Shown: piece by piece, positions 13,395 through 30,543 of the stretch
Layout: every line of letters begins with the position of its first letter
Numbering within the stretch: the first letter of the stretch is position 1
Origin: Clostridiales bacterium
GTDB taxonomy: Bacteria; Bacillota; Clostridia; Lachnospirales; Lachnospiraceae
Reading direction: 5' to 3'
DNA: 64,000 nt
Assembly: GCA_023663185.1 (NCBI GenBank)
Contig: JAMPHY010000008.1
Coordinates: 1 to 64,000, forward strand
Position numbers and translations under genes: made by a program
Notes under the pieces: model-generated
The model's input: the letters and a program-made list of their open reading frames with translations, nothing else
Database searches by the model: none
What the model was told of the DNA's origin: nothing

Positions 13395-13447
13395 AATGAT
13401 AGAAAAAACGAAAAATCATATCATAAGTTTTGCGGAGGATAAAATTA

Positions 13448-13834
13448 TTGAATATAGAAAAGAAAGATATAGAACAATATCTTTCAGAAGTAAAACAAGC
13501 GGTTGAAAGTGACAGGTATCGGCTTGATAGAAACACAAAAAGACAAGATAATATCAATCTTTTCCTAAATTATGTGATTGATGAGGCAAAAGCAAAGGAA
13601 ATTATATTGAGTCTTACTGCAATGGATTTTTCTCAAATCCTGCAAAATGAGCATAAAGGATATGAGCATGAAAGATTGTATGTATTTGGTAAGGAAGTAA
13701 CACTTTTGGAGAGAAGTGGAACGAATGAGAAAGAGGTTTCTTTGTATATCAAATTTAACAAGTTGGAAAGCTCTTTTGTAATTGTGGTTTCATTTCATGA
13801 GCAGAAGTATCCATTGACATATTATTTCAAATAA
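13448..13834 (+). CDS. MqsR-like mRNA-interferase toxin (putative)
   Basis: A 128-residue protein encoded just before a Zn-HTH antitoxin. The segment IILSLTAMDFSQIL followed by EVSLYIKFN and FVIVVSF matches the order of conserved blocks in MqsR (SESDFYKS, YLKI, LIVSF), the RelE-fold toxin that cuts mRNA. I infer the same role here; similarity is remote. I place the start at TTG 13448, because GGAGG (13434-13438) lies 9 nt upstream; an upstream TTG at 13430 has no site. The toxin-before-antitoxin order and the 27-nt gap match the mqsRA layout. Confidence 0.65.
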   Translation: MNIEKKDIEQYLSEVKQAVESDRYRLDRNTKRQDNINLFLNYVIDEAKAKEIILSLTAMDFSQILQNEHKGYEHERLYVFGKEVTLLERSGTNEKEVSLYIKFNKLESSFVIVVSFHEQKYPLTYYFK

Positions 13835-13861
13835 TCAGATAGTAAGCCGGAGGTAATCATT

Positions 13862-16505: not shown

Positions 16506-16541
16506 GCAGACTCAAACATTTGAGCCTGCTTTTTTTATAAT
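16506..16541 (+). promoter_or_regulatory. Palindrome/-10 element, copy 1 (also terminator-like)
   Basis: An imperfect palindrome (GCAG-A-CTCAAA, cat, TTTGAG-C-CTGC; 16506-16529) is followed 7 nt after CCTG by TATAATG (TATAAT at 16536-16541). The same arrangement recurs at 23887-23923. A run of seven T follows the stem, so this copy may also end the FapA transcript. It lies 33 nt before the first gene of the kinase-phosphatase block. Confidence 0.6.
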
Positions 16542-16573: not shown

Positions 16574-17479
16574 ATGAAACTGACTTTTGTAATTGGAGCT
16601 ACGGCTTCGGGAAAATCATATTTTATTAAGCAGCATTACGCGGATAAAGATGTGGATATTCTGAATGTATATGATTATCAGACTAAGGCGTATGAAGCAG
16701 AGGGACTTGCAGAGAAACAGTGGCTTTCTTATAATCAGCAGTTCAGGTGCCTTAAGCGCGCCAATGATGAACTTTTAGAGGCTGTGATGGAAGCATTGTC
16801 ACATGGGCGCGACGTTGTTGTGGAACATACGCTTTTAAAGGCTAAGCGCCGCATTGCCTATATTGATGAAATCCGGAAACGCTTTGATGTAGAGATAGAA
16901 TTTTATGTCATGTGTCCGAGTGAAGAACTGTGGCAGGCAAATATTGAACAGAGAGATTTAACAGGGCAGACGCAAAGTATTAAGAGAATGGCAGGAGATA
17001 TGGAATTTCCCAATCCTGCGGAAAGGATTGATGTTGTTTATGAGGTGGCAGATGGAGAAATACGCTTGAGAATGGATACGCCAACGCCGGAAATTTTGGA
17101 ACCCGCAAGGGAAGAAGTGAGAGAAGAAACGGAGAGGATTAGAAAAGAAGACGAAGAACGTAAGAAACGAAAAGAACTTCTTGACAGTATGAAGGAACGC
17201 AAATTCTGGCATTATTGCGAGGTGTGTGGCAAAAAGGCGTTTATTACTGCAAATGAAGCCTTTGACGAAGGTTGGGATTATCCACCCAATATGGCTATAT
17301 TTGGATTGCTAGGTCCCCGTAAGTGCGGAGACTGTTCAATAACGGATACTTTGTTCTGGAAGATTAATACGGGAGGAGGATTGCCTGTTGTAATAGAAAA
17401 GGAGCTGACGCCCAAAGAGGCGCTCGTGTGGCGCAGAATTAAAAGTGAACCTGAAAGTCTGTTGGAAGAAGAGGGGTAA
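16574..17479 (+). CDS. P-loop kinase-like protein with C-terminal zinc ribbon
   Basis: A 301-residue protein. The N-terminal half is a P-loop NTPase: Walker A GATASGKS at residues of about 8-15, then DVVVEHTLLKAKRRIAYIDEI near residue 75, a layout seen in AAA_33, zeta-toxin and polynucleotide-kinase relatives. Residues of about 170-205 are a charged helix rich in Glu, Arg and Lys. The C-terminal part has two Cys pairs (CEVC, CGDC), a probable zinc site. It is the first gene of the block, with its ribosome site GGAGGG, and a phosphoesterase follows after 6 nt. Kinase followed by calcineurin-type phosphatase recalls bacterial Pnkp end-healing enzymes; substrate and activity are inference. Confidence 0.7.
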   Translation: MKLTFVIGATASGKSYFIKQHYADKDVDILNVYDYQTKAYEAEGLAEKQWLSYNQQFRCLKRANDELLEAVMEALSHGRDVVVEHTLLKAKRRIAYIDEIRKRFDVEIEFYVMCPSEELWQANIEQRDLTGQTQSIKRMAGDMEFPNPAERIDVVYEVADGEIRLRMDTPTPEILEPAREEVREETERIRKEDEERKKRKELLDSMKERKFWHYCEVCGKKAFITANEAFDEGWDYPPNMAIFGLLGPRKCGDCSITDTLFWKINTGGGLPVVIEKELTPKEALVWRRIKSEPESLLEEEG

Positions 17480-17485
17480 AAGACG

Positions 17486-18190
17486 GTGCACTATGTAATC
17501 GGAGATATACATAACGAATTAAAAAAATTAAACAGTATTTTAGAGCAGATTCAACCGGGGCAAGATGATGAAGTGGTTGTGCTTGGAGACCTTTTTGACA
17601 GAGGCGGAGATGATGCAGACCCGGTAGGTGTTTATTTTACGCTTGCCGGCTTGCAGGGACGATGTATTTGGATACGGGGAAACCATGACCAATGGCTTGC
17701 GGATTACATCGAAGATTATTTTTGGGGCTCGAAGAGAAAGAGGGCAAAGATGGGCTTTTATTCCTATAATTCTTTTGACTTAATAAAGCAGAGAATGACG
17801 GAAACGGATATGTTAAATCTTGCCGATTTAATACATAATCTGCCGCTGCAAAAGGAGATTGAGATAGATGGAAAGAGATTTCTTCTGGCGCATGCTATGA
17901 CCTCATATCCGTCCGTCAAAGAGCCGAATGATTATTATCTGATGGGGAATTGGGAGCTGGAAACATTTTTCTTAGAAGGAATAGACGGCTATATTTCATT
18001 ATGCGGACATACCACCACGGATAGTATTATAGGGGAAAAAAGCGGCGGATATTTAGGCGAGGAGGCGCATTCTATCTGGAGAAATAATAAAGAGAATGTT
18101 TATCTTATGGATTGCGGCTGCGGCTTTGCCGATGGAAAACTGGCATGTATCTGCCTTGAGACAGGGGAGTGTTTTTATTCTTGCAGTTAA
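17486..18190 (+). CDS. Calcineurin-like metallophosphoesterase 1 (PPP type)
   Basis: A 234-residue phosphatase with every metal-binding motif: GDIHNE near the start, GDLFDRGG, RGNHDQW, LLAHAM and CGHTTTD. It belongs with PPP/ApaH/PrpE-like enzymes acting on phosphoproteins, dinucleotides or nucleic-acid ends. It starts with GTG at 17486, with GAGGGG upstream. It is 6 nt behind the P-loop gene and 32 nt before an unknown gene, so it is firmly inside the operon. It differs clearly from the phosphoesterases at 20116, 26347 and 29061. Confidence 0.9.
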   Translation: MHYVIGDIHNELKKLNSILEQIQPGQDDEVVVLGDLFDRGGDDADPVGVYFTLAGLQGRCIWIRGNHDQWLADYIEDYFWGSKRKRAKMGFYSYNSFDLIKQRMTETDMLNLADLIHNLPLQKEIEIDGKRFLLAHAMTSYPSVKEPNDYYLMGNWELETFFLEGIDGYISLCGHTTTDSIIGEKSGGYLGEEAHSIWRNNKENVYLMDCGCGFADGKLACICLETGECFYSCS

Positions 18191-18222
18191 AAGAAAGTTT
18201 TTTATGAATGGAGGGAATTAAG

Positions 18223-19557
18223 ATGACAAATTGTGAAACATTTACATTATCAGATTTAACAGAGGAGCTTTTTGCTGCCTTGTGTTATGTTGAGAAAGAA
18301 TGGTCTTCCGGTTTGGGCGGTTCGGGCTGTATCCGTATGATTACGGAAACAGGGCAGGAGTATTTTCTTGGCATAGAAGGATACGACGAGCTTAGACCGG
18401 AGATAACGGTGCCGCTGCTTACGACATATGATGAATGGAACAAGGAAAAATGCCGGAAAGTATACTGCCTTGAAGATGAAGGCTGGACTTATGCAAGGGA
18501 TTTTGCGACAGATGTTCTTATCCGCAATGATATATATGAAAAAATGAATAAGCTGTATTATAAAACGGAAAATAAGAAACTTGAACATGGCGATTGCTAT
18601 ACGCTCATACTGCGAGTTTTAGGGAAGGAAAACAATATGAACCGCAAGGTGTATGCAAAAACAAAGGAGCAATGGGATAAGGAAGAGCAGGAACGTCTGA
18701 AAGCCGAGGAAAAGAGAAAAAGACTGGCTATTGCGCCGGAAGACATTGAGTGGAAACCCCTCTATATAAATAATATGCTTCAAAATTCAGTTGAGGGAAT
18801 TTATGGATTTCTCTTTAAAAAAGGGAAGAATGGAGAAATCAGCGGATATAAGTGGACAATCGTTTTTCAGTATGAAGAGTTTGACCATTGCGCGCGAAAA
18901 AGTAACGCTCCTATTGAACGCTATAATTTGTATTTTAAAGAATATAGGTCTGTATGCGGAGTGTTAGGATATAAAGAACCAAATTATTCGGGCGTACAGT
19001 GTTACACGAAATCGGCAATTCATGACGGTGTGCATAGTTATGGAAAATTTGTGCGTTCGTATAGCACACTGGAAATGGCAAAAGAAGCGGCGCTTTACAG
19101 AAACGGCTGTATAGGCTGGGGTAACGTAGATATAGAAAATATTGTCAGGGTTTCCCTAGACGAGCAATCCATAGCGCAGATGGAGAAAGACTACGATGTC
19201 GGTGAGAAAAATCAAAGCTGTTTCAATAAGGATATACATGAGGGTTTTACATTCAGAAATCTCCGTAACTATTTATCAATGATAGACAGATTATCAATCT
19301 GTATGCTTGAAACATTAAATTATGAGAATTATATATGTATTGGAGATGTGCCGCATACTTATGACGACTATTATGTATATGGCGTCGGTATGATTGAGAG
19401 CGAATTTTATAAGATTGGCAAATATGAGTATGCGGCGAGCGGTGAACAAAAAGACCTTACACTTGCCACCTGTATAGAGGTTATGCTGGCAAGAGAACCT
19501 AAAGGAGTTTTGTTAGAGAAAGAGAGCGAGGAAGACATAGAGGAAACGGAGGAATGA
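18223..19557 (+). CDS. Uncharacterised protein of the kinase-phosphatase block
   Basis: A 444-residue soluble protein I do not recognise. It has no signal peptide or TM. A charged helix near residues 140-175 (KEQWDKEEQERLKAEEKRKR) separates an N-terminal domain from a Tyr- and aromatic-rich C-terminal domain, and the tail is acidic (EEDIEETEE). GGAGGG lies about 8 nt before ATG 18223, which is preferred over ATG 18208. It overlaps the next gene's ATGA region, so the two are probably translationally coupled. I can suggest no function beyond membership in this operon. Confidence 0.7.
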   Translation: MTNCETFTLSDLTEELFAALCYVEKEWSSGLGGSGCIRMITETGQEYFLGIEGYDELRPEITVPLLTTYDEWNKEKCRKVYCLEDEGWTYARDFATDVLIRNDIYEKMNKLYYKTENKKLEHGDCYTLILRVLGKENNMNRKVYAKTKEQWDKEEQERLKAEEKRKRLAIAPEDIEWKPLYINNMLQNSVEGIYGFLFKKGKNGEISGYKWTIVFQYEEFDHCARKSNAPIERYNLYFKEYRSVCGVLGYKEPNYSGVQCYTKSAIHDGVHSYGKFVRSYSTLEMAKEAALYRNGCIGWGNVDIENIVRVSLDEQSIAQMEKDYDVGEKNQSCFNKDIHEGFTFRNLRNYLSMIDRLSICMLETLNYENYICIGDVPHTYDDYYVYGVGMIESEFYKIGKYEYAASGEQKDLTLATCIEVMLAREPKGVLLEKESEEDIEETEE

Positions 19558-19559
19558 AT

Positions 19560-20132
19560 ATGAATAAAGAACTTAAGACAAAACGGCTGCTGCTCCTTCC
19601 CGGCGATAATGAAAGAGACAACGCCCCTTTTTTAAAGATGCTGCGCATGGACGGAGACTTTAGGCTTTTTTCAGGCGTTGATCCGATGGAAAAGAATATT
19701 CTGGAATTTCAAAATTATTTTGAAAAAAAGCAATGCTGTTTATACGCAATATTTCTTAAAGACCGTCCCGAAGAAATGATTGGATACGCCGGAATCAGTT
19801 ATCGAAAAGAAGAGCGGACTGAGGCGGAATTTTATATTTCTAAGTATTATAGGAACAACGGATATTGTACGGAGGCACTAAATAAAGTTTGCGAAGAAGC
19901 CTTTCAGGGCAATCTCAAATGGCGGGATAAAAAGGGAAAAGAAGTTTGTCCTATAATTAATAAACTGAATGCTACGACTATTTCCACCAATCTTGCAGCG
20001 GTTAGAGTGTTGGAGAAGTGCGGTTTCTTAAAAAACACGGAAATTGCATTCTGCCTTCAGGTTTTTATAGATCCTGATGATGAAGATGTCGTATATGATA
20101 ATGAGGTTAGTGAATATGAGAGAAAGAAATAG
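19560..20132 (+). CDS. GNAT-family acetyltransferase (RimJ/RimL-like)
   Basis: A 190-residue N-acetyltransferase. It opens with the typical ELKTKRLLLLP strand, has a GYAGISY strand, a YISKYYRNNGYCTEAL acetyl-CoA-binding segment and ends with AAVRVLEKCGF. The family transfers acetyl groups to ribosomal protein N-termini, aminoacyl-tRNAs or small amines; the substrate here is unknown. GGAGG is 7 nt before ATG 19560 but only 1 nt before ATG 19554, so 19560 is preferred. The gene overlaps the following phosphoesterase gene by 17 nt. Confidence 0.85.
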   Translation: MNKELKTKRLLLLPGDNERDNAPFLKMLRMDGDFRLFSGVDPMEKNILEFQNYFEKKQCCLYAIFLKDRPEEMIGYAGISYRKEERTEAEFYISKYYRNNGYCTEALNKVCEEAFQGNLKWRDKKGKEVCPIINKLNATTISTNLAAVRVLEKCGFLKNTEIAFCLQVFIDPDDEDVVYDNEVSEYERKK

Positions 20133-21075
20133 CGGGCGTTTTTATGTTACAGGAGACTGTCATGGTGATTTTAATAAAATTGACTTTTTCTGCCGATGGC
20201 GTCAGACCTGCCGAAAGGATTTTATGATTATTCTTGGGGATTCAGGTATTAATTATTGGGCAGACAGTTCAGACCGGAAGACAAAATGTATGATTTCCAA
20301 ACTGCCAATCAGTTTCTTTGTGGTTCACGGTAATCATGAAGCGCGCGCCTCGGAACTGGATTTTTATCAGGAAAAAAGCTGGCATGGCGGAATCGTGTAT
20401 TATGAAGAAAAATTTCCGAATATTCTATTTGCTAAGGATGGAGAGATATATGATTTTAATGGAAAAAAAGGGATTGTAATCGGAGGCGCTTATAGTGTGG
20501 ATAAGAACTTCAGAATAGATGCGGGACTGCCCTGGTATGAAAACGAACAGCCTTCTGCAGAGATAAAAGCGTATGTGGAAACAAAACTAAAAGACTGCGG
20601 CTGGATGGTGGATTTTGTTTTTTCACATACCTGTCCATCCAGCTTGGAACCGCAAGATATGTATCTGGAATATATTGATCAGAGCAAAGTTGATAAGACA
20701 ACAGAGGAATGGCTTGAGAGGATACATAGTAGATTGCAATATAAAATGTGGTATTTTGGGCATTTTCATGAGAATCGGCAATATGCCCATGCGGTAATGC
20801 TGTTTGAAGAGATTAGGGAGTTGGGGGCGGATTCTTTTTTACAGAGGGTTGGACGTCCCAGATATAAAGTTGGCGACAGAGTGTTGTTTTATCCGGACGA
20901 AAGGCGGGATTATGCAGGAACTATCGTTGTCGTAGATGCTTACGGAACAATGGCTGATTCTACGCAGGTACATTATGATATCAAGACGCAGGACGGTTTT
21001 TTATATAAGCATGTGCCGGAAACTCTGGTGGAGAAAATAGAAGATATTAAGGCTGGAAGAGATGTTGTAGACTGA
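20116..21075 (+). CDS. Calcineurin-like metallophosphoesterase 2 with SH3/KOW-like tail
   Basis: A 319-residue protein. The catalytic domain has TGDCHGD, ILGDSGINYW, VHGNHEAR, FVFSHTC and YFGHFHEN, the full set of di-metal motifs. From about residue 250 a separate beta-rich segment reads YKVGDRVLFYPDERRDYAGTIVVVDAYG, which looks like an SH3- or KOW-type barrel. ATG 20116 has GAGG about 10 nt upstream and lies inside the end of the acetyltransferase gene. The tail may bind nucleic acid or protein; that is inference. Confidence 0.87.
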   Translation: MRERNSGRFYVTGDCHGDFNKIDFFCRWRQTCRKDFMIILGDSGINYWADSSDRKTKCMISKLPISFFVVHGNHEARASELDFYQEKSWHGGIVYYEEKFPNILFAKDGEIYDFNGKKGIVIGGAYSVDKNFRIDAGLPWYENEQPSAEIKAYVETKLKDCGWMVDFVFSHTCPSSLEPQDMYLEYIDQSKVDKTTEEWLERIHSRLQYKMWYFGHFHENRQYAHAVMLFEEIRELGADSFLQRVGRPRYKVGDRVLFYPDERRDYAGTIVVVDAYGTMADSTQVHYDIKTQDGFLYKHVPETLVEKIEDIKAGRDVVD

Positions 21076-21100
21076 AAGGAAGTTAAAGGAGATGATGTTT

Positions 21101-21742
21101 ATGCGAAAAGAAATCACAGCGGCAGACCGAACAAATAATATTTGGAATAAGTATGAGTTTGTTTCAGAAGTAAAAGGAAAACACTTTATCATGTTATGGA
21201 AATTGCCTAAATATCTGAAAAGGCGGTTAAAGTGGAGCTTACAGCGCATTACACGCGGATTCTCGGAAATGGATATATGGTCGATGGACACTTATTTGCA
21301 GACGTTAATTCCGGATATGCTGCAATATTTAAAAGAGCACCGAATGGGTTCACCGTCCCATCTAAGCCGTACTGACAATCCGAATGATAATAGCTGTCAT
21401 GAAGAGTGGGATAAAATTTTAAATCAGATGATTTTCTTATGGAGAGAGTCGTATGAATATAGCTGTTCCAGAAAAAATCCCTATGAAGAAGAATATCATA
21501 AAGCGTGGGAAGAGTATATGGAAAAATACGAGAAAAAGTATAAGAAAAAGCATGTAAAAGTAAAGTGCAAAGACGGAATATATTATAGAAATATAGTTCC
21601 GTGGATGAGTCAAATACCGGAATATCAGGAAATATATGAAAAACATGAAAAAGCGGAAAGTGAGATAGAACAATATAGAGAAGAATGCAAAGACAAGGCG
21701 CTGGATATGATGAAGGAATATTTTTACTGTCTGTGGGATTGA
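21101..21742 (+). CDS. Uncharacterised charged protein
   Basis: About 213 residues, very rich in Lys, Glu, Tyr and Trp, helical, with no TM or signal peptide. Distinctive segments are GKHFIMLWKLPKYLKRRLKW near the start and YEEEYHKAWEEYMEKYEKKY in the middle. I do not recognise the family. GGAG 9 nt before ATG 21101 is preferred over ATG 21092, which directly abuts it. The gene lies 25 nt after the phosphoesterase and in the same operon. Confidence 0.6.
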   Translation: MRKEITAADRTNNIWNKYEFVSEVKGKHFIMLWKLPKYLKRRLKWSLQRITRGFSEMDIWSMDTYLQTLIPDMLQYLKEHRMGSPSHLSRTDNPNDNSCHEEWDKILNQMIFLWRESYEYSCSRKNPYEEEYHKAWEEYMEKYEKKYKKKHVKVKCKDGIYYRNIVPWMSQIPEYQEIYEKHEKAESEIEQYREECKDKALDMMKEYFYCLWD

Positions 21743-21776
21743 ATATATTTTTATAGTAAGAAAGAGGGCGAAAAGC

Positions 21777-22742
21777 ATGAGTGAGAGAGTTGAAATCAAG
21801 ACAATAAATCTGGACGAAAGATTGACCTATGAATTTATCAAAAGTTATATTCCATCTAAGGATACGGCGGCTTATCTTCATGCCATTAACCACCAATTCA
21901 GCGAATTGGAAAAAGCGACAATCATAGGAAATCATGAGTGCCTTTCAAAAGATGAAAAATTAGAGGCTTTACAGAGAATGAAGGAGCTTACTAAAGACGA
22001 AAGTCTGCAAGAGCGGATTGAATGGGCGATGGAGTTGATACAGAAAAATAAATATGCTTTTGATTCGTCGCCTGCATGGGATGCTTTTCATGATTTCTTC
22101 CCGATTCCACATAATTTTCGGCATGGGGACATTGTGCGTCTGGTAGGAAACGGATACCGCAGCGTGCTTGGAGTAATTCTGGGATATGATGAAAAAAATT
22201 ACAGGTTTTATTGCAATTTATCCGGAGATTACAGTGACATTCAAGTGACGGTGGATACTCGCTTTTTAATAAAAGGCTGTGACGATAACGGAGCTCCCAT
22301 ATATGATTATCTGGGAGAGTTCTCACATGAGCATATTAATCCGATTTACATAGAGAGGATACAATTAGAACCTGATAACGAGTGCCGACTCTATTTGGAG
22401 TATCTTGCGGCATGCGATACGCCGCAAGAAAAGGAAAAACGTAAGTCGGCAGAGCAGGTGATTATAAAGCAACTACAAAATGTGTGGCAGTATTATCCGA
22501 AACTTAATTTAACGGAATTAGTGATAATGGCTGCGAAGGTAGCAAAATTATGGTTAAACTCCTCGCAGACGTCTATAAAAAAGTTGATTGCTCTGCCGAA
22601 GGCTAAGGATATTGATATAGAAAAGATAAAAGATTTTGAATTGATGGACGGCTTATTTCATATGTTGCCGGAGAGGGCAAAGAAAGATATCTGGAGCAAA
22701 GAAGCGGATTGCAGGGCAGGCGAAGAGTGTGGTATGATGTAA
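21777..22742 (+). CDS. Uncharacterised protein with SH3-like segment
   Basis: 321 residues of unknown family. Residues of about 115-195 contain RHGDIVRLVGNGYRSVLGVILGY, a GD-hydrophobic-turn pattern like the tail of phosphoesterase 2, suggesting a small beta-barrel. The rest is helical, with an acidic first third and a Lys-rich last third. GAGGG precedes the ATG. It is followed by an AT-rich gene after 28 nt. Confidence 0.6.
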   Translation: MSERVEIKTINLDERLTYEFIKSYIPSKDTAAYLHAINHQFSELEKATIIGNHECLSKDEKLEALQRMKELTKDESLQERIEWAMELIQKNKYAFDSSPAWDAFHDFFPIPHNFRHGDIVRLVGNGYRSVLGVILGYDEKNYRFYCNLSGDYSDIQVTVDTRFLIKGCDDNGAPIYDYLGEFSHEHINPIYIERIQLEPDNECRLYLEYLAACDTPQEKEKRKSAEQVIIKQLQNVWQYYPKLNLTELVIMAAKVAKLWLNSSQTSIKKLIALPKAKDIDIEKIKDFELMDGLFHMLPERAKKDIWSKEADCRAGEECGMM

Positions 22743-22770
22743 GTATTAAAGTGCGGAGGAGGAAGTGGAG

Positions 22771-23868
22771 ATGGAGAAAGAGAAGAAAGAAGAATTTACA
22801 TTTGATGGCATATACGTTGAAGTATTGAATAAAACAAAAAATTGTAATGAAGTAAAGAGTATGCGGGAAGTTGCTGAATTGATTAAAAGTAAGAAAGTTG
22901 ATGATTTAAAGGAACTTGATGTAAGAGAGAAAGTTTTGAAGATTATATATGATAATTGTGACCCAGAATCACAATTTAGGAAAGAATATAAAAAAGTGGA
23001 TAATATTCTTGTAAAAACAGCATTTGGAAAAAAATGGGCTTCAAACTATGATTATGATGATTCTCTGATTTCAAGTTATATTTTCTGTAAAACATTTAAA
23101 AATAGAAAATGGCAAATAGATTCTCTTGGGGGATACGAATATAAAATTTGTGAATATGGTATTTGTGAAGATAAAAGAATTTATTTTCGTGGCGACACCA
23201 TGAATTCATGGAGTACAACTATTAATGAATATATGCGTCTTTTTGGGAATGCGTATATAAAAGATTATAGCGGAAGGAAAATACCTAAGGGATACAAATC
23301 ATGGGAAAGTTATCTTAGCGAACGTAAAAACTATAAAGATGTTGCAATACCTGAGTATATTAATAATTTTATGAAATGTTTATATACAATAGGAAATTTT
23401 GTGCTTGTACCAGGAGCAAAAGGAGTAAAAGAACAGGTAAACTTTAATCAAAGACGAAATATAAAATTTAGGGATTACTGGGATTTGACGTTGTTGGAAA
23501 TTTATAATTATTACCATGAAAGTTGTGATAATAATTGGATATGTATGTTGGAAGAAGAGGATAAATTAGGAAAAAAGGAAGCAATTAAGAATTGGTTGAA
23601 TAAAAAGGAAGATTGTGATACGGAAGGCTGGAATAAGTTTGTTGAAGATAATTTTATGCAGCCATTTTTAAAAAAGAACTCAAATGGTTCATATATTTCA
23701 AATGGTTCATATAATGAGCCAGATGAGTTATGGGCTGGACATTTTGAGGGAAAACGGATGCCTGATAAGGAAAAGCAATTTGAACAGTTTTTTGTAAATT
23801 CCAGAATAAGAATTCTGCAACGAGGTGAGCTCATAGCAAAAGCTTTAGTGGATAAAAAACAAAAATAA
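22771..23868 (+). CDS. Uncharacterised AT-rich gene in the block
   Basis: A 365-residue protein with visibly higher A+T content than its neighbours (many AAA, AAT, ATA and GAT codons), which suggests separate acquisition. Conserved-looking segments are FRGDTMNSWSTTINEYMRLFG in the middle and NFNQRRNIKFRDYWDLTLLEIYNYY. These resemble a widespread group of hypothetical proteins scattered in bacterial accessory regions, but I cannot name it with certainty. There is no TM or signal peptide. GGAGGAGG 8 nt before ATG 22771 is preferred over GTG 22765. The gene ends just before the second palindrome/-10 element. Confidence 0.65.
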   Translation: MEKEKKEEFTFDGIYVEVLNKTKNCNEVKSMREVAELIKSKKVDDLKELDVREKVLKIIYDNCDPESQFRKEYKKVDNILVKTAFGKKWASNYDYDDSLISSYIFCKTFKNRKWQIDSLGGYEYKICEYGICEDKRIYFRGDTMNSWSTTINEYMRLFGNAYIKDYSGRKIPKGYKSWESYLSERKNYKDVAIPEYINNFMKCLYTIGNFVLVPGAKGVKEQVNFNQRRNIKFRDYWDLTLLEIYNYYHESCDNNWICMLEEEDKLGKKEAIKNWLNKKEDCDTEGWNKFVEDNFMQPFLKKNSNGSYISNGSYNEPDELWAGHFEGKRMPDKEKQFEQFFVNSRIRILQRGELIAKALVDKKQK

Positions 23869-23886
23869 AAAATAACCAAAAACATC

Positions 23887-23923
23887 AACAGGCTCAAAAG
23901 TTTGAGCCTGTTCTTGCTATAAT
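23887..23923 (+). promoter_or_regulatory. Palindrome/-10 element, copy 2
   Basis: A perfect 12-bp inverted repeat (23887-23898 and 23901-23912, centre AG) containing CTCAAA/TTTGAG is followed 7 nt after CCTG by TATAAT (23918-23923) and G. Spacing is identical to copy 1 at 16506-16541. No T-run follows here, so a terminator alone does not explain it. The next gene starts 36 nt after the -10 box. Confidence 0.65.
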
Positions 23924-23958
23924 GTAGTTAAGAACAAAAAGAAAAGGAGAACTACATT

Positions 23959-24882
23959 ATGGAGAAGAACACGACATTACACAATTACATTTACGGACCG
24001 ATTAGGAGAAAGGTAGAGGAATGGATTTGGTATGATGACCATCAACCGAAAAGCAATTATTTTGCAAATCGCGAGGAGCATGACGCTTTTCGCAGCAAGC
24101 ATGACAGGGACTGTATGCTGACAGAGGGAGAACTGAAAGCAGACACGTTATTCAGTCTTTGGACTCCGCTTAAGCAGACCATTATGAGACTGAATGATAA
24201 AGAGACGATTCAGGCTGTGGGAAATATTTCCAGCAAATACGTTTTTCTGCGCGAGTTTATCAAAGGCGATAATATAGAAAGACTCCTGCCGTCAGATGAA
24301 TCGACGGTGCAGCATTTAAGCATGCTGTTTGGATTAGGCATGGGAAGGGGAAATGTTTTTATTCTTCCCGAAAGACAGCTAAACAGCGCCAGGGCGCAGA
24401 AACCTTATTACGATTATGTGCCGGTATTTTTACTGGAATCTTTTCCGGGCGGCGCATTCGCGGACTATTGGAAGAGTCCGGAGGATTATATTAAATGGAT
24501 TCACTCGGAACATTTGGAAATGCTTTTTGACGGTGAAATTTCTCCTGAGCATATCAGGGATTTAAGCGGTTCCGGAGATGTGAGGGTTTCTTTTGCACCG
24601 GAAGGCATAAATGCACTTGACCGTATGTTAAGCAGTTATGTCCACGTATTAATGAAAAGGGAGAAAATTTATAGGGATTTAGGTAATAAACCTATGGATG
24701 AACCATACTTTTTGAGTCTTCAAGAGTTGTCGGACGAGGACATAGATGGAATATACAGAATCGATATTTCAGTAGCGTGGGGGCGTGAAAAAGATCCTGA
24801 GGGGAAAAGAATGAAGGAAATGTCTAAGCAGATAGAAGAGAAGCTTAAGGCTGACGGATATGTTCTGCCCTCATTCCTGTAA
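23959..24882 (+). CDS. Uncharacterised protein, first gene after element copy 2
   Basis: 307 residues with no recognised family. The N-terminus carries WIWYDDHQPKSNYF and EEHDAFRSKHDRD, and the middle has FGLGMGRGNVFILPERQLN. It is soluble, without TM or signal peptide. It is translated from ATG 23959 with AAGGAG about 11 nt upstream and starts the second half of the block, 22 nt before a P-loop gene. The base composition returns to that of the earlier block genes. Confidence 0.65.
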   Translation: MEKNTTLHNYIYGPIRRKVEEWIWYDDHQPKSNYFANREEHDAFRSKHDRDCMLTEGELKADTLFSLWTPLKQTIMRLNDKETIQAVGNISSKYVFLREFIKGDNIERLLPSDESTVQHLSMLFGLGMGRGNVFILPERQLNSARAQKPYYDYVPVFLLESFPGGAFADYWKSPEDYIKWIHSEHLEMLFDGEISPEHIRDLSGSGDVRVSFAPEGINALDRMLSSYVHVLMKREKIYRDLGNKPMDEPYFLSLQELSDEDIDGIYRIDISVAWGREKDPEGKRMKEMSKQIEEKLKADGYVLPSFL

Positions 24883-24904
24883 GACTTCATGGGAGGATAA
24901 ATGT

Positions 24905-26302
24905 ATGATTATTGCTGCTTATGCCGGAGTCGGCAAAACGGAATTTTGTAAGAGGAATCAGGAAAAAGCAATAGATTTAGTATGTATGCCGTTTAAATAT
25001 GAGAATTTTTACGAGGTATCAAATGAGCTGGGAGAGGGGGAAGATATTAAGGCGCATGGAAACCTTGTCCTTCGTAAACAGTGGGAGCTTTTCTACTATT
25101 GGATTGTAAAGTATCTGGAACATTATTGTCCAGAAAAATATATTGTTATTCCGACAGTCTTTCGGATTATGGATTTGTTGGAGAGCGATATGATTCCGTT
25201 TACAGTCGTTTATCCGGATATTAGTTTAAAGGAAGAGTATGAAAAGAGATATAAAGAGCGGGGAAATTCGGAGTCTTTCTTAGATGTATTTGTGGGCGGC
25301 TGGGATAGTATGCTTTCCGGATTAGAGAAATATGGAAAGAAAAATATTGTTTTATCCGCAGGACAGTTTCTTGCGGACGTTATCCCTTGTGACGCTTCTG
25401 CTGAATATATTCATAGACAGCTTGTTAGTTTTGAAAAAAGTCTGTTATGGGAAAATCCAAGAAATGCTGCATTAAGAAAAATGCAGAGTGCGGAGCGCGA
25501 GCGTCAGGCGAAAGAGTATTATATGGAGCTAACGATGCGAAACAGTATTTGCAGAAGGAATCGGACATTAGATGAACTAAGGTTTTTACTGTCGCATGAC
25601 AAGGATAAAAAGGATGAAGCTGTTATAAATGTAATTACAGATAGAGAATCTATTTATAAATTAATTAATGCGGTGATAGAGGAAGTAAATTTACATTATG
25701 AAGAATACAGTGTTTCAGGCAGACATTTGAGATTTACAGATGAAATATCCCTATCTGCTTTGCATATGGATACGCAGTTAAGTAGATGTATGTCACCCTA
25801 TAATTATTTAGATGTAATGTACAATCCATGTTTTTTTGGACATTCTTTTGAACAGATAAACAGTTGTTCAGAAGATATGATTAAGAATAAATATTTAAAG
25901 CAGTATTTGCCTTGCATAATAGGAATTTTACGACAAGGAAATGAATACTGGGAAACTGTTGTGTCAGAACAAATTACGGACGAAGAACTTGAGAAGATGA
26001 TTTGCCATGTTTACAGGCAACGGCTGAAAGAGGCGTATATGTACAGAAAAGGGCAAAGTTCAAACGACGAAATCTGTGGCGTTCTATGTTTTGAGCCTAT
26101 CTGTAAGGATGACGTTATCACAGATTTTACATATGTAGGCTCAAAGAAGGATTTGAAACTTCTGCTCTCAATGGAAGAGAATGAGGATTTGAAAAAAATA
26201 AAATTGTATATTCTCAGCTATGTGAATGTGGATGGGAAATGGTGTTATACGGAAAAAATTTATGGAAAAAAGGAGCTGGAAATAATAAGAGAATGGATTT
26301 AA
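24905..26302 (+). CDS. P-loop NTPase, kinase-like N-terminus
   Basis: A 465-residue protein starting directly with a P-loop, IIAAYAGVGKTEFCK. Further segments (IVIPTVFRIMDLLES, FTVVYPDISLKEEYEKRYKERG) read like a small kinase fold with a lid. The C-terminal 250 residues are unassigned and include many Cys and Tyr. GGGAGG 8 nt upstream selects ATG 24905. It is followed after 44 nt by a phosphoesterase, giving a second kinase-phosphatase pair in the block. It is not obviously a duplicate of the protein at 16574; the shared design is inferred from the P-loop and neighbours. Confidence 0.65.
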   Translation: MIIAAYAGVGKTEFCKRNQEKAIDLVCMPFKYENFYEVSNELGEGEDIKAHGNLVLRKQWELFYYWIVKYLEHYCPEKYIVIPTVFRIMDLLESDMIPFTVVYPDISLKEEYEKRYKERGNSESFLDVFVGGWDSMLSGLEKYGKKNIVLSAGQFLADVIPCDASAEYIHRQLVSFEKSLLWENPRNAALRKMQSAERERQAKEYYMELTMRNSICRRNRTLDELRFLLSHDKDKKDEAVINVITDRESIYKLINAVIEEVNLHYEEYSVSGRHLRFTDEISLSALHMDTQLSRCMSPYNYLDVMYNPCFFGHSFEQINSCSEDMIKNKYLKQYLPCIIGILRQGNEYWETVVSEQITDEELEKMICHVYRQRLKEAYMYRKGQSSNDEICGVLCFEPICKDDVITDFTYVGSKKDLKLLLSMEENEDLKKIKLYILSYVNVDGKWCYTEKIYGKKELEIIREWI

Positions 26303-26346
26303 GATTATAGCATGGAAAGCGTGAACGGTTAAAGAGGAGGCTTTGA

Positions 26347-27084
26347 ATGAGATACATTGTTTCTGACATACACGGCTGCTATAGGCAATATCAGGCGCTG
26401 TTAGAAAAAATTCAATTTTCTGATAATGACGAACTGTATATTCTTGGTGACGTAGTAGACCGTGGACCAGAGCCGATTAGACTTATGCAGGATATTATGG
26501 AGCGTCACAATGTAATTTTTATTCTGGGAAACCACGATTTTATTATGTATTCGCTGATGAAAAGACTTTGCGTGGAAATCACGGAAGAAAATTATGACTC
26601 TTATCTGACGAATGACATTATGCTGGACTATAATCTATGGATGCAGGACGGCGGACAGGTTACGGCAAAGCAGTTTCAGAAACTAAGCCGTTCTGAGCAG
26701 GAAGATATGCTTGATTATATAGAAGGCGCGTCCGGATATGAAGTGATAGAATGTAATGGAAAGGAATACAGACTGGTACATGCCGGACTCGCAGATTTTT
26801 CTCCTGATAAGGATTTGGCTGAGTATGATTTATATGAATTATTGGAAGAACGGGCTGATTACTCTAAAAGATATTATCCTGATGAGAATATTTTTCTGGT
26901 TACAGGGCATACTCCGACTATTTATATTGACGGCTGGAATAAGCCCGAAGTATACAGAAAGAATGGGCATATTGCGTTGGACTGTGCTTGTGTAGGCGGC
27001 GGAAAACTGGCGGCGTTCTGCGTAGAGACGGAAGAAGTTATTTATGTGGACGGCAGACAAATGGAGGATATAGAAAATGAGTGA
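26347..27084 (+). CDS. Calcineurin-like metallophosphoesterase 3 (PPP/ApaH-like)
   Basis: A 245-residue phosphatase with SDIHGCY, LGDVVDRGPE, LGNHDF, LVHAGLADF and VTGHTPT, the complete PPP set. It is closest in layout to bacterial PrpE, PrpA and ApaH-type enzymes. GAGGAGG lies just before the ATG. The 3' end overlaps the WYL regulator by 8 nt, so regulator and phosphatase are translationally coupled. Confidence 0.92.
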   Translation: MRYIVSDIHGCYRQYQALLEKIQFSDNDELYILGDVVDRGPEPIRLMQDIMERHNVIFILGNHDFIMYSLMKRLCVEITEENYDSYLTNDIMLDYNLWMQDGGQVTAKQFQKLSRSEQEDMLDYIEGASGYEVIECNGKEYRLVHAGLADFSPDKDLAEYDLYELLEERADYSKRYYPDENIFLVTGHTPTIYIDGWNKPEVYRKNGHIALDCACVGGGKLAAFCVETEEVIYVDGRQMEDIENE

Positions 27085-28324
27085 AGAAAATAAAGAAGTT
27101 AAAGAAAGTGGAAAAAGCGAGAAGAAGAAGGTTAATAGGAAAGCACGCAAGCTGAATGCAACGGAAAAGACAATTCTTTTGCTGGAGTATCTTAAAAAAA
27201 GTACGGACGAAAATCATAAGGTTAAGTCCATAGGAAAAATCAGGGAGTATTTTAACGACAAAAAAATAAATATCGGCAATAATAAAACGGTTAATACGTT
27301 GATTAAAAAAGTTGCCAATGCTTATAATACGAATCTAGATGAATCTTTGATTCCGGAATCGGAATGGCGGATTGTGTTTGATGATTATTCTAAAAAATAT
27401 GGTGAGCAGCCGATAGAGGAATTTGAAGGGGAATCGGAAGAGGAAGAATACGACACTGATGAAATGAAGATTAAAAATTTATATTACGCGCATGAGTTTT
27501 CGCATGAGGACATCGATGCGCTGGTGGAGGCGGTGCTGTTTTCCCGAACAATTGCAGCAAAGGACGCGGACAGGATAATTAAAACTTTGACAGAGCGGTT
27601 TGCCTCAGAACATTACGGAAATAAATCATTAGGTATCTGTAAGATACATGAGAAAAGCAATTATGATAAAGAACTTTTGCGCAACAATATTAAAATCATA
27701 CAGCAGGCAATCGAGAAGAATGTGCAGATAGAGTATAAATTCAATGGCTACTCGCATGATGGGAAGATTAGACCTATGCGGGATTATATAAGAGTGGCAA
27801 GTCCTTATTATATTGTGGCTGATAATGGAAAGTATTATCTGCTTGCCGCGAATGACACATATAAGAATACCATGACAATACGCATTGATTTAATGACCGA
27901 CGTCAGCTTAGCAGTAAATGACAAAAAAGCAGATAAGAAAGGCGTTCCCAGAATCCCGATAGATGAAGTCAAGGGTATGCCGAAAAGCTGGGACGATAAC
28001 TTTTCATATAGGCACATTAAAATGGCGTATGATTCACCCGAAAGGATAACGCTGCGGGTAAAAAGTGAAAAATCTGAGCAGGGAAAACATATTGATCCGG
28101 ATTACACTTTTTTGCATGATAACTTTGGCGATACTTATGTTTATCGGGGCGTGGATAAACAAGATTCAGATTATGATATTGTCGAGGTGAGGTGTTCTCC
28201 CTTTGGCATTGTCAGCATGGCTATGCAGTATGCCGAGAAGATGGAGATTTTAGAACCGGCGTATGTGCGTGAAATGGCGCAGGAAAAGGCGCGGGTGTTG
28301 TGTGAAAAATATTTGGGGGACTAA
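27077..28324 (+). CDS. WYL-domain transcriptional regulator
   Basis: A 415-residue regulator. A Lys-rich start is followed by a winged-helix-like region at about residues 30-100 (TEKTILLLEYLKKSTDE). An acidic linker precedes the WYL domain at about residues 210-290 (VQIEYKFNGYSHDGKIRPMRDYIRVASPYYIVADNGKYYLLAA), and a C-terminal WCX-like extension follows. WYL domains sense nucleic-acid or nucleotide ligands and often control phage-defence and DNA-repair genes. It is the last gene of the block and a candidate for binding the CTCAAA/TTTGAG elements; that link is inference. Confidence 0.88.
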   Translation: MSEENKEVKESGKSEKKKVNRKARKLNATEKTILLLEYLKKSTDENHKVKSIGKIREYFNDKKINIGNNKTVNTLIKKVANAYNTNLDESLIPESEWRIVFDDYSKKYGEQPIEEFEGESEEEEYDTDEMKIKNLYYAHEFSHEDIDALVEAVLFSRTIAAKDADRIIKTLTERFASEHYGNKSLGICKIHEKSNYDKELLRNNIKIIQQAIEKNVQIEYKFNGYSHDGKIRPMRDYIRVASPYYIVADNGKYYLLAANDTYKNTMTIRIDLMTDVSLAVNDKKADKKGVPRIPIDEVKGMPKSWDDNFSYRHIKMAYDSPERITLRVKSEKSEQGKHIDPDYTFLHDNFGDTYVYRGVDKQDSDYDIVEVRCSPFGIVSMAMQYAEKMEILEPAYVREMAQEKARVLCEKYLGD

Positions 28325-28496: not shown

Positions 28497-28739
28497 ATGA
28501 CGATGATAAAAGAAAAGGCAGTTGAAATGATAAAACGGATGCCGGAAGATAATATGGCATATGTGATAAATATCCTTCAAAATTTAGAAGCGATGTCTGC
28601 AGATAAAGAGAAAGATAAACAAAGGGCGAAAGCGGCACTTACAGATATCATGAATATGGAAAAGAGACTGCCAGATGACTTTGATCCTGTAAAAGAACTT
28701 ATGGAAGCGAGGATGGAAAAATATGACAATCTTAGTTGA
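28497..28739 (+). CDS. Antitoxin-like protein of a PIN-domain module
   Basis: An 80-residue helical, acidic protein (KEKAVEMIKRMPEDNMAYVINILQNLEA) with a charged C-terminal half, the usual profile of small antitoxins encoded before PIN toxins in Firmicutes. It overlaps the PIN gene by 17 nt. GGGATG precedes the ATG. The function follows from the position and the PIN partner rather than from a named motif. Confidence 0.6.
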   Translation: MTMIKEKAVEMIKRMPEDNMAYVINILQNLEAMSADKEKDKQRAKAALTDIMNMEKRLPDDFDPVKELMEARMEKYDNLS

Positions 28740-28989
28740 TACTAATGTCATACTGGATATTCTATTAAAGCGGGAACCGCATATCAACGCGGCAAAAACC
28801 ATTATGACAAAGTGCGCAAATCGAGAAATTGTTGGATATTTAGCAGCACATACCATTCCCAATATATTTTATATACTGAGAAAGACCTATTCTTTGGAAG
28901 AAAGAAGAAATTTTATTAGAAATTTGTGTGAGATATTTTATATTTCTGAATTGAATACAGAAAAGATTTTATTGGCTGTTGGAAATTGA
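28723..28989 (+). pseudogene. Truncated PIN-domain toxin (VapC-like)
   Basis: 88 residues starting ILVDTNVILDILLKREPH, the canonical N-terminus of a PIN ribonuclease with its first catalytic Asp. The frame ends at AVGN before the conserved downstream acidic cluster (the DFEDA-type motif) expected near residues 95-115 in a full-length protein of about 130-140. At least two metal-binding acids are therefore missing, and the toxin is probably inactive. No continuation is visible in the other frames before the next gene at 29061. Confidence 0.7.
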
Positions 28990-29060: not shown

Positions 29061-29690
29061 ATGGGCAATACATGGGTAACTAGCGATTTACATATTGGAC
29101 ATAATAAACCTTTTCTTTATGAGCCGCGTGGATTTAAAAGTATTGAAGAGCATGACAGGGCACTTGTAAAAAATTGGAATGAACTGATAAATGCAGATGA
29201 TACTGTTTATGTTTTGGGCGACGTAATGCTAAAGCATGGTTTAGAAGACACTGATTTTTCATACGGCTTGTCAGTGCTGCAGGAACTGAACGGCAGACTT
29301 ATAATTATCAGAGGAAATCATGATAGCGTAAATAAAATTGAAGAGTATAAAGGCTGTAGTAATGTTATAAGCGCAGGAGAAGCAGCGTTATATTTGAATT
29401 ATCCGGAAGTGGGAAGTTATCATTTTTATCTGTCGCATTATCCCACGCTGATTTCCGGTAAGAAATTGAAATCTTTAAAAACGGCGCTTATTAATCTATA
29501 TGGGCATACTCATCAGAAGGAGAAGTTTTATCAGGAATATCCGTATATGTACCATGTTGGTCTAGATGCCCACGATATGAGACCTGTTTTATTGGACTGT
29601 GTTATTGAAGATATCAGGATTAAAAGGTCGGCTTATTGTGAAGATGAATTGATAAAATTAGATTGTATGAAAAACTTTCATAATGTATAA
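29061..29690 (+). CDS. Calcineurin-like metallophosphoesterase 4
   Basis: A 209-residue phosphoesterase of the type found in phages and mobile regions. Motifs are TSDLHIGHN, VLGDVML, RGNHDS, YLSHYPT and LYGHTHQKE. GAGGGG is 9 nt before the ATG. It lies outside the tightly packed block but on the same strand. Its last codons overlap the predicted promoter of the VbhA/Fic module. Confidence 0.9.
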   Translation: MGNTWVTSDLHIGHNKPFLYEPRGFKSIEEHDRALVKNWNELINADDTVYVLGDVMLKHGLEDTDFSYGLSVLQELNGRLIIIRGNHDSVNKIEEYKGCSNVISAGEAALYLNYPEVGSYHFYLSHYPTLISGKKLKSLKTALINLYGHTHQKEKFYQEYPYMYHVGLDAHDMRPVLLDCVIEDIRIKRSAYCEDELIKLDCMKNFHNV

Positions 29691-29739: not shown

Positions 29740-29910
29740 ATGATACCGTTTCAAGCTATTTCAGACAGCACAAAAGCGTCTTTTGCAATGGAAGGAATTT
29801 ATGCAACAGAAAAAGATGAAAAAAACATTATAGATGTTCTTAGTGGTAAACGCACTTGTCAAGATGTTGTAGAGGAAATCAAGAAAAAGTATTTAGCTGA
29901 AAAGGGATAG
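29740..29910 (+). CDS. VbhA-like antitoxin of the Fic toxin
   Basis: A 56-residue protein, easily missed because of its size. It contains SFAMEG, which fits the Fic-inhibitory motif (S/T)xxxE(G/N) of class I antitoxins. The glutamate of that motif blocks ATP binding in the partner Fic protein. The C-terminal half (DVLSGKRTCQDVVEEIKKKY) is the usual helical tail. GAAGGG precedes the ATG, and the Fic gene starts 3 nt after its stop. Confidence 0.88.
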   Translation: MIPFQAISDSTKASFAMEGIYATEKDEKNIIDVLSGKRTCQDVVEEIKKKYLAEKG

Positions 29911-29913
29911 TAA

Positions 29914-30543
29914 ATGGATAAATTTTATTATGAATATAAAGATGATGGTGATGTGAAATATTGCTATCCAGGGACCTCGATATTGATTAATAAATTTGAT
30001 ATTCGTGATGGACAGCAGCTAAGTACAGTCGAAAGAGAAATTTCGATTGTAAAGGCTGCTGTTTTGTCGAACAGGATAACGGGAAATTTTGATTTAAAGC
30101 ATTTGAAAAGTATTCATAGATTTATGTTTGAGGATATTTATAGCTGGGCTGGACAGATACGCAGGGTTGATATAGCTAAAGGAAATATTTTTTGTTTGGT
30201 TCAGTTTATAGAAACACAATTTGCAGAGTTGTATGCAAAGTTAAAAGAAGATAATTTTTTAAAAGGTGAATCAGATATAGAATATGTAAGTAAAAAAATT
30301 TCATTTTATCTTTCGGAAATAAATGTGATACATCCATTCAGGGAAGGAAATGGTCGGGTACAACGGGTATATTGTCAGCAATTATGTATGAATACAGGGC
30401 ATTTTTATTTGGACTTTTCAATGGCTGGTGAAAATGAAATGTTAGAAGCCAGTGTAGATGCCTTTATTCGCAAATATGAAAAAATGGATTCATTGATTAG
30501 AAAGTGCATAAAAGAAGAACTTGCTTATACCTCATCACCCTGA
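29914..30543 (+). CDS. Fic-domain AMP-transferase toxin
   Basis: A 209-residue Fic protein. The catalytic motif HPFREGNGR is complete and lies near residue 144, so it should transfer AMP to a target once freed of its inhibitor. The N-terminal region YCYPGTSILINKFDIRDGQQL matches VbhT/FicT-type proteins. It carries no internal inhibitory helix, consistent with a separate antitoxin just upstream. Known class I targets are topoisomerases; the target here is unknown. The gene overlaps the convergent HD gene by 19 nt. Confidence 0.9.
   Translation: MDKFYYEYKDDGDVKYCYPGTSILINKFDIRDGQQLSTVEREISIVKAAVLSNRITGNFDLKHLKSIHRFMFEDIYSWAGQIRRVDIAKGNIFCLVQFIETQFAELYAKLKEDNFLKGESDIEYVSKKISFYLSEINVIHPFREGNGRVQRVYCQQLCMNTGHFYLDFSMAGENEMLEASVDAFIRKYEKMDSLIRKCIKEELAYTSSP

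Follow-up and report, generated by a model that had tools for sequence, protein, structure and literature searches.

Gene content of the block

The window, a 64,000-nucleotide stretch of contig JAMPHY010000008.1 from a Lachnospiraceae genome, carries twelve open reading frames between positions 16574 and 28324, all on the forward strand and at the positions given in an earlier note on this DNA. Neighbouring genes in the block lie at most 90 nt apart; the deepest overlap, between 19554 and 20077, reaches as much as 56 nt if the latter begins at its first ATG. The genes, named below by their first positions, and the associated features are as follows.

16507..16528, +, op1 palindrome of unit 1 (22 bp), 7 nt 5' of TATAAT at 16536-16541
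16574..17479, +, KIN1, with an AAA_33 P-loop kinase-like N-terminal domain (Pfam 7.3e-13) and a cysteine-containing C-terminal domain
17486..18190, +, PPP-type calcineurin phosphoesterase with GDIH, GDLFDR, GNHD and GHT motifs (Pfam Metallophos 3e-14)
18208..19557, +, unnamed protein (dN/dS 0.176) whose C-terminal ~95 aa recur in other islands as a small gene of their own
19554..20132, +, GNAT acetyltransferase (Pfam 2e-14); in genome G067 it shares an ORF with the following gene
20077..21075, +, calcineurin-type phosphoesterase of the phrog_1649 kind (Pfam 2e-10; phrog_1649 8e-24)
21092..21742, +, unnamed protein, phrog_11543-like (1.1e-6; dN/dS 0.165)
21777..22742, +, unnamed protein, family present in 7 distinct clustered loci
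22765..23868, +, DUF6994 protein (Pfam PF22507, 1.4e-7)
23889..23910, +, op1 palindrome of unit 2 (perfect), 7 nt 5' of TATAAT at 23918-23923
23959..24882, +, unnamed protein, present in 12 of 145 related genomes
24905..26302, +, KIN2, with a P-loop NTPase N-terminal domain (phrog_4182, 6.9e-27) and a Walker A motif
26347..27084, +, PPP-type phosphoesterase, ApaH/PrpE/Pnkp-like (Pfam Metallophos)
27077..28324, +, WYL-domain regulator (Pfam 4.1e-5; PADLOC WYL 4e-18)
29061..29690, +, fourth phosphoesterase (Pfam), from the gene pool of the phosphoesterases of other islands

Both P-loop proteins are followed by a calcineurin-type phosphoesterase, with gaps of 6 nt (16574/17486) and 44 nt (24905/26347), and Pfam bears out the third phosphoesterase (20077), the GNAT (19554) and the WYL regulator (27077), all as the earlier note had described. 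Five further proteins had been left without a name; one of these, 22765, is now assigned to DUF6994 (31.9 bits against a curated cut-off of 27, with 61 residues aligned), while the other four are still unnamed. The DUF6994 gene is the fastest-evolving of the ten genes common to the block and G067 (dN/dS 0.42), the remaining nine having dN/dS values of 0.085-0.176. The block is real and under selection. All 12 carriers of 23959 are among the 15 genomes with the island WYL family described below. PDB searches with alignments of DUF6994, 23959 and the WYL protein gave no usable match. The family of 29061, which may belong with the block, is also found in three other stretches of the 47 that were clustered.

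The same palindromic promoter lies in the 95-nt gap 5' of 16574 and in the 90-nt gap 5' of 23959, so that 16574-23868 and 23959-28324 are most likely transcribed as separate units. Neither Rfam nor tRNA scanning of the window returned a match. No integrase was named among the block genes; an integrase-looking cluster, judged by eye, lies near three of the loci compared below. An origin from a phage or plasmid was considered for the two proteins searched and rejected: the phage matches of KIN2 are only partial (11 records, none covering more than 34% of the query), and 18208 has no plasmid match and no relative on viral contigs in the collections searched.

Operator-like palindromes of the island

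The 22-bp palindrome (op1) that stands 7 nt before TATAAT and heads both units is reported here for the first time. Leaving aside its two free bases, the copy at 16507 differs from the second copy at one position. The motif has two matches in the window and none in 100 shuffles. Constraining the geometry gave 25 operator matches in 663 kb of island stretches (two of them duplicate views of the G067 sites) against 0 in 703 kb of control, and in every one the spacer between palindrome and TATAAT was 7 (op1) or 9 (op2). Op2 is a separate palindrome of similar layout that belongs to a second WYL clade. Across 77 whole genomes of the genus op1 has ten sites, eight at intact islands, one before a truncated island AAA+ gene and one (in G011) in a stretch without island genes; all 11 op2 matches are on island contigs, and reversed-pattern controls for both whole-genome scans gave none. 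The WYL proteins associated with op1 and op2 fall on either side of a tree branch with 99/97 support.

An operator pattern with a 4-nt spacer had the wrong spacing and gave no match. Generic palindromes 7 nt before TATAAT occurred in test and control stretches alike (13 and 6, respectively, with scattered 7/10 matches), and we therefore claim only the sequence-specific motifs. When op2 was sought under relaxed settings in 20 further stretches, with controls at stricter settings only, 16 rows were returned, nine of them at promoters of WYL genes or their neighbours in Ruminococcus loci and the rest mostly noise.

Since op1 precedes island genes and the second WYL clade has a palindrome of its own, the WYL protein is probably the common switch of the island. 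Binding of the WYL protein to the palindromes is suggested by the co-segregation of operator and WYL clade, in which the operator groups represent few independent events.

A modular island tied to one WYL family

Phosphoesterases, DUF6994, 23959 and KIN1 recur across genera near one family of WYL genes (the island WYL family), and none of them was seen around 20 ordinary WYL genes. Among 35 loci anchored on the island WYL family, phosphoesterases are found in 18 by a motif rule (19 by profile) and DUF6994 in 18, as compared with none of either in 20 ordinary WYL loci (358 kb) and 20 FapA loci (345 kb). Fifteen of the 35 lack a phosphoesterase, and eight lack both a phosphoesterase and DUF6994. 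In G371 a DUF6994 match adjoins a WYL gene. The earlier note had allowed that the genes might occur independently of one another in other genomes; the neighbourhood comparison shows them recurring with the island WYL family. Its suggestion of one conserved twelve-gene system did not hold. G067 keeps ten genes in order, with a 948-aa AAA+ protein in the place of KIN2 and a different first gene, which has an op1-like site of its own, in that of KIN1; other loci keep some of the genes, and in G007 the island is reduced to a scar. In gut Clostridia the island WYL family is accompanied by a modular, exchangeable island, of which the block is one version. A literature search of titles and the beginnings of abstracts, with most subscription journals outside its scope, found no published description of the island.

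Other versions of the island carry HAD_SAK_2 (a Pfam family named 'Swiss Army Knife RNA repair'), PARG_cat_microb, Macro and HD genes; the HAD_SAK_2, PARG and macro genes of these relatives are absent from this block. Small receiver-domain proteins occur in three loci (cluster 22) and may correspond to the 'cRec' of PMC9503650; however, two of them match Pfam Response_reg, one above and one below the cut-off, and we make no claim of identity.

Pfam recognised 83 families among the 122 neighbour proteins from these loci. Their PADLOC matches include five to PDC-S10 (one checked is a phosphoesterase), two to IetA (one checked is the AAA+ protein) and one each to PDC-S72, mad2 and SoFic, which lend a theme of conflict to the end-healing reading discussed below. 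Together with the strong turnover at the KIN1 and KIN2 places and the scar in G007, this diversity of Pfam and PADLOC candidate families favours a WYL-regulated accessory or defence island without shared chemistry, in which cassettes turn over and only regulation and location are common; so does the position of the block and FapA on different contigs in seven of the eight genus genomes that hold both. However, Metallophos is the commonest family among the neighbours (19 of 122) and no phosphoesterase was found in the 40 control loci, and a random mix would not so favour phosphoryl-transfer enzymes. We regard an island without shared chemistry as somewhat unlikely.

Kinase-like proteins and their phosphoesterases

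KIN1 matches the polynucleotide kinase family phrog_505 (1.2e-7), and AAA_33, its Pfam family, is broad. Against solved structures, the best nine of its 15 matches are Pnkp-type polynucleotide kinases, four of them known as such, and all are below significance (best E 0.017). The position that we take to be that of the general base is D or E in the seven of eight alignment rows that reach it. KIN1 is weakly Pnkp-like. Only eight of the 47 clustered stretches contain it, and in six of its eight loci a phosphoesterase lies next to it. Across the order (E <= 1e-8), matches are restricted to 2 of 325 genomes, its own and G533, where only the C-terminal domain is matched, near three phosphoesterases, a DUF6994 gene and a WYL gene.

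KIN2 was found in the island at this locus only. It has no significant Pfam family, its C-terminal half had no relative in our searches, and a PDB search gave no usable match; hhalign paired it with KIN1 at a probability of 20%, and its P-loop assignment is by sequence only. The phosphoesterase that follows it, 26347, matches the bacterial Pnkp model TIGR04075 (2.7e-9) over positions 184-415, which we take to be the phosphatase region. Its fit to ApaH is better (3e-23 against 2.7e-9), as it is in the PDB (ApaH 1.5e-10 against 6.9e-9 for 4j6o, presumably a Pnkp phosphatase).

End healing and alternative functions

Healing of RNA or nucleotide ends is the best single reading of the block, with a probability of roughly 0.4. 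A kinase and phosphatase system for RNA ends, as the earlier note proposed, is favoured by the pairing of the two enzymes, by its recurrence, by the HAD_SAK_2 and PARG genes of other island versions and by the Pnkp-type kinases that lie nearest to KIN1 below significance; the fixed set of twelve genes that went with the proposal is not borne out. Under the end-healing reading, a WYL dimer would bind the palindromes, which would overlap the -35 region of both units' promoters, and a nucleic-acid-derived ligand bound by the WYL protein would lead to transcription of both units, the WYL gene included. The induced enzymes would act on phosphate-bearing ends. KIN1 and 17486 would correspond to the kinase and the phosphatase of bacterial Pnkp, divided between two genes and lacking the ligase, and would heal RNA (or related nucleotides) with 5'-OH, 3'-phosphate or cyclic-phosphate ends; the fast-evolving DUF6994 protein would be the nuclease-like effector. 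The DUF6994 family is predicted to be HNH- or type IV restriction-like (PMC11701544). What the analysis itself establishes is the gene content, its conservation and association, and the layout of the operators with its agreement with the WYL clades; binding by the WYL protein, the ligand, the enzyme activities and RNA as substrate are predictions.

Pfam and profile models identified no ligase family among the block proteins, and RtcB is absent from the genome (94.8% complete), which agrees with the lack of a visible RNA ligase or RtcB already remarked upon; counts of the KxDG ligase motif were too unspecific for use. Given these absences, the island could heal broken RNA, with no visible means of sealing it. 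PADLOC detected no classical defence system in the ten block proteins scanned (all but 23959 and 26347); apart from the WYL model, its sole match was a weak one (0.0034). It seems improbable to us that the block is an undescribed inducible immunity or damage regulon of gut Clostridia, in which a WYL sensor of broken nucleic acid, acting through clade-specific palindromes at 7 or 9 nt from the -10 box, would control an exchangeable set of end-healing enzymes (a split Pnkp) and a fast-evolving HNH-like DUF6994 effector, the cell thereby cutting invaders and mending its own RNA in a single response.

Processing of ADP-ribose, NAD or dinucleotide signals, in which the kinases and phosphoesterases would trim ADP-ribose or ApnA-type molecules sensed by the WYL protein, is also doubtful. 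ApaH is the closest match of 26347, island versions include PARG_cat_microb, Macro and HD genes, and section 3.8 of PMC9503650 describes ARG-centred conflict systems in which WYL or Nudix regulators accompany calcineurin, HD and HAD phosphatases and macro domains; but across the twelve block proteins Pfam found neither an ADP-ribosylglycohydrolase nor a macro or PARG family, and only two PARG and one macro domain among the 122 neighbours. Protein or small-molecule phospho-signalling, with the PPP-type enzymes as Ser/Thr phosphatases and the P-loop proteins modifying metabolites, is very unlikely despite matches to the Ser/Thr phosphatase families PRK09968 and PRK11439 and to phrog_246, as Pfam found no protein kinase gene in the block, KIN1 being AAA_33-like and KIN2 an unnamed phage-family P-loop protein.

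The block compactly connects a WYL sensor with a defined operator and with a set of gut-bacterial enzymes, most of them unnamed. Searches with the operator can reveal additional members of the island, and it can also serve as a reporter of induction. If the end-healing reading is true, the block would represent an inducible variety of Pnkp-type repair that lacks a ligase. If it is false, a new WYL regulon would still have been mapped, with DUF6994 predicted to be under the kind of regulator that controls phage-defence islands.

Comparison with known systems

Bacterial Pnkp, which heals and seals RNA ends (TIGR04075; for Pnkp1-Rnl-Hen1 see PMC4411300), likewise combines a kinase with a calcineurin-type phosphatase, the corresponding island genes being adjacent in six of eight loci, but the island uses separate genes and no ligase domain. 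Scores against TIGR04075 (15.6 bits for 16574, 14.6 for 17486 and 35.8 for 26347) are far below its 750-bit cut-off.

BrxR-type islands (PMC9122601) share with this one a WYL regulator and inverted repeats near the -10 box at more than one place in the island; here, op1 lies at 16507 and 23889 and op2 elsewhere. The BrxR island holds BrxU, a GmrSD-family enzyme (PMC9122601), and DUF6994 has been likened to the HNH superfamily that includes BrxU (PMC11701544). In contrast to BrxR- and CapW-regulated islands, PADLOC placed no BREX or other known defence system beneath the regulator among the ten block proteins, and the operator sequences differ.

The ARG-centred WYL systems (PMC9503650, section 3.8) resemble the island in pairing a WYL sensor-HTH regulator with phosphatase genes, in the macro and PARG genes of some island versions, and in a conserved core with variable modules that turn over between close relatives. 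They differ in the ADP-ribosylglycohydrolase, which Pfam did not find among the twelve block proteins. The core of the island consists of DUF6994, 23959, PPP phosphoesterases and a Pnkp-like kinase, and its operators are defined here.

Genes of the block

All twelve ORFs that the earlier note had placed in the block (16574-28324) are present as stated. Pfam assigned the first kinase-like protein (KIN1, 16574) to AAA_33 and recovered three calcineurin phosphoesterases, a GNAT and a WYL regulator; among the five proteins that the note could not name, only 22765 gained a Pfam name (DUF6994). The sole family found for the second kinase-like protein (KIN2, 24905) was the phage family phrog_4182. 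The D-x-H, GD, GNH[DE] and GH[TF] motifs are kept in all four phosphoesterases, counting 29061 outside the block. Nine of the ten genes common to the window and the related genome G067 had dN/dS values of 0.085-0.176, and the DUF6994 gene had a value of 0.42 (52% identity). KIN1 and KIN2 have no counterpart within the G067 stretch, where a 948-aa AAA+ gene occupies KIN2's position. In the window (19554-21075) the GNAT and phosphoesterase genes overlap, each in its own frame; in G067 they form a single 505-aa ORF (L011 14456-15973).

Conservation and association with the WYL family

The WYL protein matched 60 of 145 related genomes, own included (E<=1e-3), 15 of them with a long, strong form (E below 1e-60). 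Gene 23959 was found in 12 of the 145, all among these 15. Ten of its 13 matches share a contig with the WYL gene and lie within 5 kb of it, two sit close to the end of a contig, as does the WYL gene in the genomes concerned, and one weak match is located elsewhere. KIN1 and 21777 each occur in seven genomes, 18208 in five and KIN2 in four, with island neighbours for KIN2 in its own genome only.

A search with the WYL alignment through 84,980 species, each represented by a single genome, yielded 35 loci, several of them short contigs, which together with 12 further stretches supplied 674 proteins for clustering. Among the 47 stretches, L011, L012 and L117 all cover a single locus of G067, and the pairs L017/L098 and L018/L097 each represent two contigs from the same genome. 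With duplicate G067 views removed, the main phosphoesterase cluster occurs in 25 stretches, DUF6994 in 20, 23959 in 14, KIN1 in eight, the AAA+ protein and 21777 in seven each and a HAD family in six; a second DUF6994-like cluster (five stretches) is joined to DUF6994 by alignment.

Phosphoesterases were present in 18 of the 35 WYL loci by a motif rule (30 proteins, 529 kb) and in 19 by profile (33 proteins), the profiles being derived partly from these loci, so that they judge the controls fairly rather than the WYL loci themselves. None was found in 20 ordinary WYL loci (358 kb, from weak WYL matches) or in 20 loci around the flanking gene FapA (345 kb, from 40 places), nor did the DUF6994, KIN1, 23959, 21777, AAA+ or HAD profiles match in either control set. 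Against the association, 15 of the 35 loci lack a phosphoesterase by either rule and eight lack DUF6994 as well (L100, L104, L105, L110, L123-L126). As independent anchors, PF22507 (DUF6994) was matched in three genomes out of 341 from the class (that of the window; G371, beside a WYL gene; and G256, below the cut-off and without any partner genes), and the KIN1 profile gave one match besides its own genome in 325 genomes of the order (E<=1e-8), to the C-terminal domain only, with three phosphoesterases, DUF6994 and WYL nearby.

Operator-like palindromes

A 22-bp palindrome (op1) heads both presumed transcription units in the window.

Copies of op1 in the window
16507-16528, op1 copy 1, CAGACTCAAACATTTGAGCCTG, 7 nt before TATAAT, in a long gap
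23889-23910, op1 copy 2, CAGGCTCAAAAGTTTGAGCCTG, 7 nt before TATAAT, in a long gap

It was absent from 100 shuffles and lies upstream of island genes in G067, G033 and G003 with an identical 7-nt spacer. At loci of another WYL clade, a second palindrome (op2, AGGGTGGAAAAAACCGCCCT) is found, with a 9-nt spacer to TATAAT or a box much like it. The island stretches (663 kb), from which both motifs were derived, contained, in 16 stretches, six op1 matches, of which two are repeat views of the same sites, and 19 op2 matches; 703 kb of control loci contained none. Spacers of 6-8 (op1) and 8-10 (op2) were allowed, and only 7 and 9 were observed.

With up to one mismatch allowed, op1 has ten sites in 77 genomes of the genus. 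Eight are in the four genomes with op1-type WYL, every one at their islands; one, in G011, is in a stretch without island genes; and a perfect one directly precedes a truncated island AAA+ gene in G061 (L197 about 9024-9450, G061:C41), where the island WYL gene was not found. All 11 op2 sites (up to two mismatches, eight genomes) are on contigs with island genes, which in G036 and G040 carry 23959, with the WYL gene on a different contig. Reversed-pattern controls gave no sites in the genus genomes. At these settings, op2 was absent from the four op1-type genomes, and op1 from the remaining ten genomes of the genus with a WYL island, eight of which carry op2. Under a relaxed search of up to four mismatches, a setting without a control, op2-like sites at an equal spacing precede the WYL gene or its divergent neighbour at Ruminococcus-type loci (L103-L105, L107-L109). 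In the WYL tree (34 rows), a branch with 99/97 support divides three op1 rows from 14 op2 rows, the other 17 having no assigned type.

The distribution and spacing of the palindromes and their match to WYL clades suggest that the WYL protein is likely the common regulator of the island, a prediction from sequence, and the island is very probably a single WYL regulon. The palindrome overlies the -35 region and a promoter scan found no consensus promoter there, so repression and activation are both possible. WYL regulators are described as binding palindromes or inverted repeats, and some as sensing single-stranded nucleic acid (PMC10693628, PMC9122601).

Other palindromes 7 nt before TATAAT front DUF6994 and AAA+ island genes at L121 (1482-1516) and L090 (about 5713, minus strand), where the WYL protein is diverged; these are perhaps further operator types, similar weak matches also occurring in controls. 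The island WYL gene of G003 (L074 9747-11054) is interrupted by an in-frame stop, which splits it into two ORFs.

Mobility and flanks

In the sister species G007 the flanks are shared (86-92% DNA identity), and the interval from FapA to the HD gene holds just three short block remnants (97 bp of 21777; two of WYL, 56 and 61 bp) together with a single unrelated ORF; the scar lies at 9843-10039 of L127 (G007:C103:98000-117000). Of the eight genus genomes found to contain both FapA and the island, seven have them on separate contigs.

Beside the island are two pairs resembling toxin-antitoxin genes, with no DNA match at the corresponding G007 site:
28497-28989, small gene and PIN_3 domain
29740-30543, Fic protein behind a small ORF

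Left of FapA, an SF1 helicase with DUF2726 and a SocA/Panacea-domain protein (10168-14872) mark another variable spot, with a different gene in G007. At L093, L092 and L101 the retrieved island flank includes a gene of the tRNA/rRNA uracil methyltransferase type (cluster 17, of which one member was checked by Pfam), possibly a preferred insertion site.

Possible function

The neighbour set that we scanned comprised 122 proteins, 117 taken from the 156 left after deduplication and five added by hand. Among the best 25 of 83 Pfam families were Metallophos (19 proteins), DUF6994 (10), AAA_33 (3), PARG_cat_microb, HAD_SAK_2 and HD (2 each) and Macro (1). PADLOC matched 16 families, including PDC-S10 (5), IetA (2), Cas3 (2), mad2 (1) and PDC-S72 (1, a candidate at 2.9e-197); in ten neighbours checked singly, PDC-S10 corresponds to a phosphoesterase and IetA to the AAA+ protein. 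Stand-alone receiver-domain proteins are encoded at 2118-2522 of the window and at L099 8532, L114 6517 and L113 4874; the three outside the window, in WYL-anchored loci with phosphoesterases, might be cRec-like.

DUF6994 is described as HNH or type IV restriction-like with a non-strict active site (PMC11701544). These neighbour families, the DUF6994 and WYL literature, the structure matches of KIN1 and its adjacency to a phosphoesterase (6 of 8 loci) lead us to prefer, tentatively and at roughly 40%, an inducible end-healing island. A regulon of mixed contents is a somewhat weaker candidate. An ADP-ribose or dinucleotide pathway is less likely again. Phosphoesterase 26347 has ApaH as its best match, and Pnkp is weaker.

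No ligase is visible, in line with the earlier note, and RtcB, also reported there as not visible, was not found in the genome by a search positive in 9 of 14 control genomes. Against solved structures (E<=1), KIN1 gave 15 matches, none significant. The best nine are Pnkp-type kinases, led by 4gp7, 4jst, 4gp6 and 4mde (E 0.017-0.059; labelled 'Metallophosphoesterase'), which we take to be the clostridial Pnkp kinase domain, and including T4 kinase at E 0.17 and 0.5 and mammalian enzymes at about 0.5; unrelated proteins are among the remaining matches.
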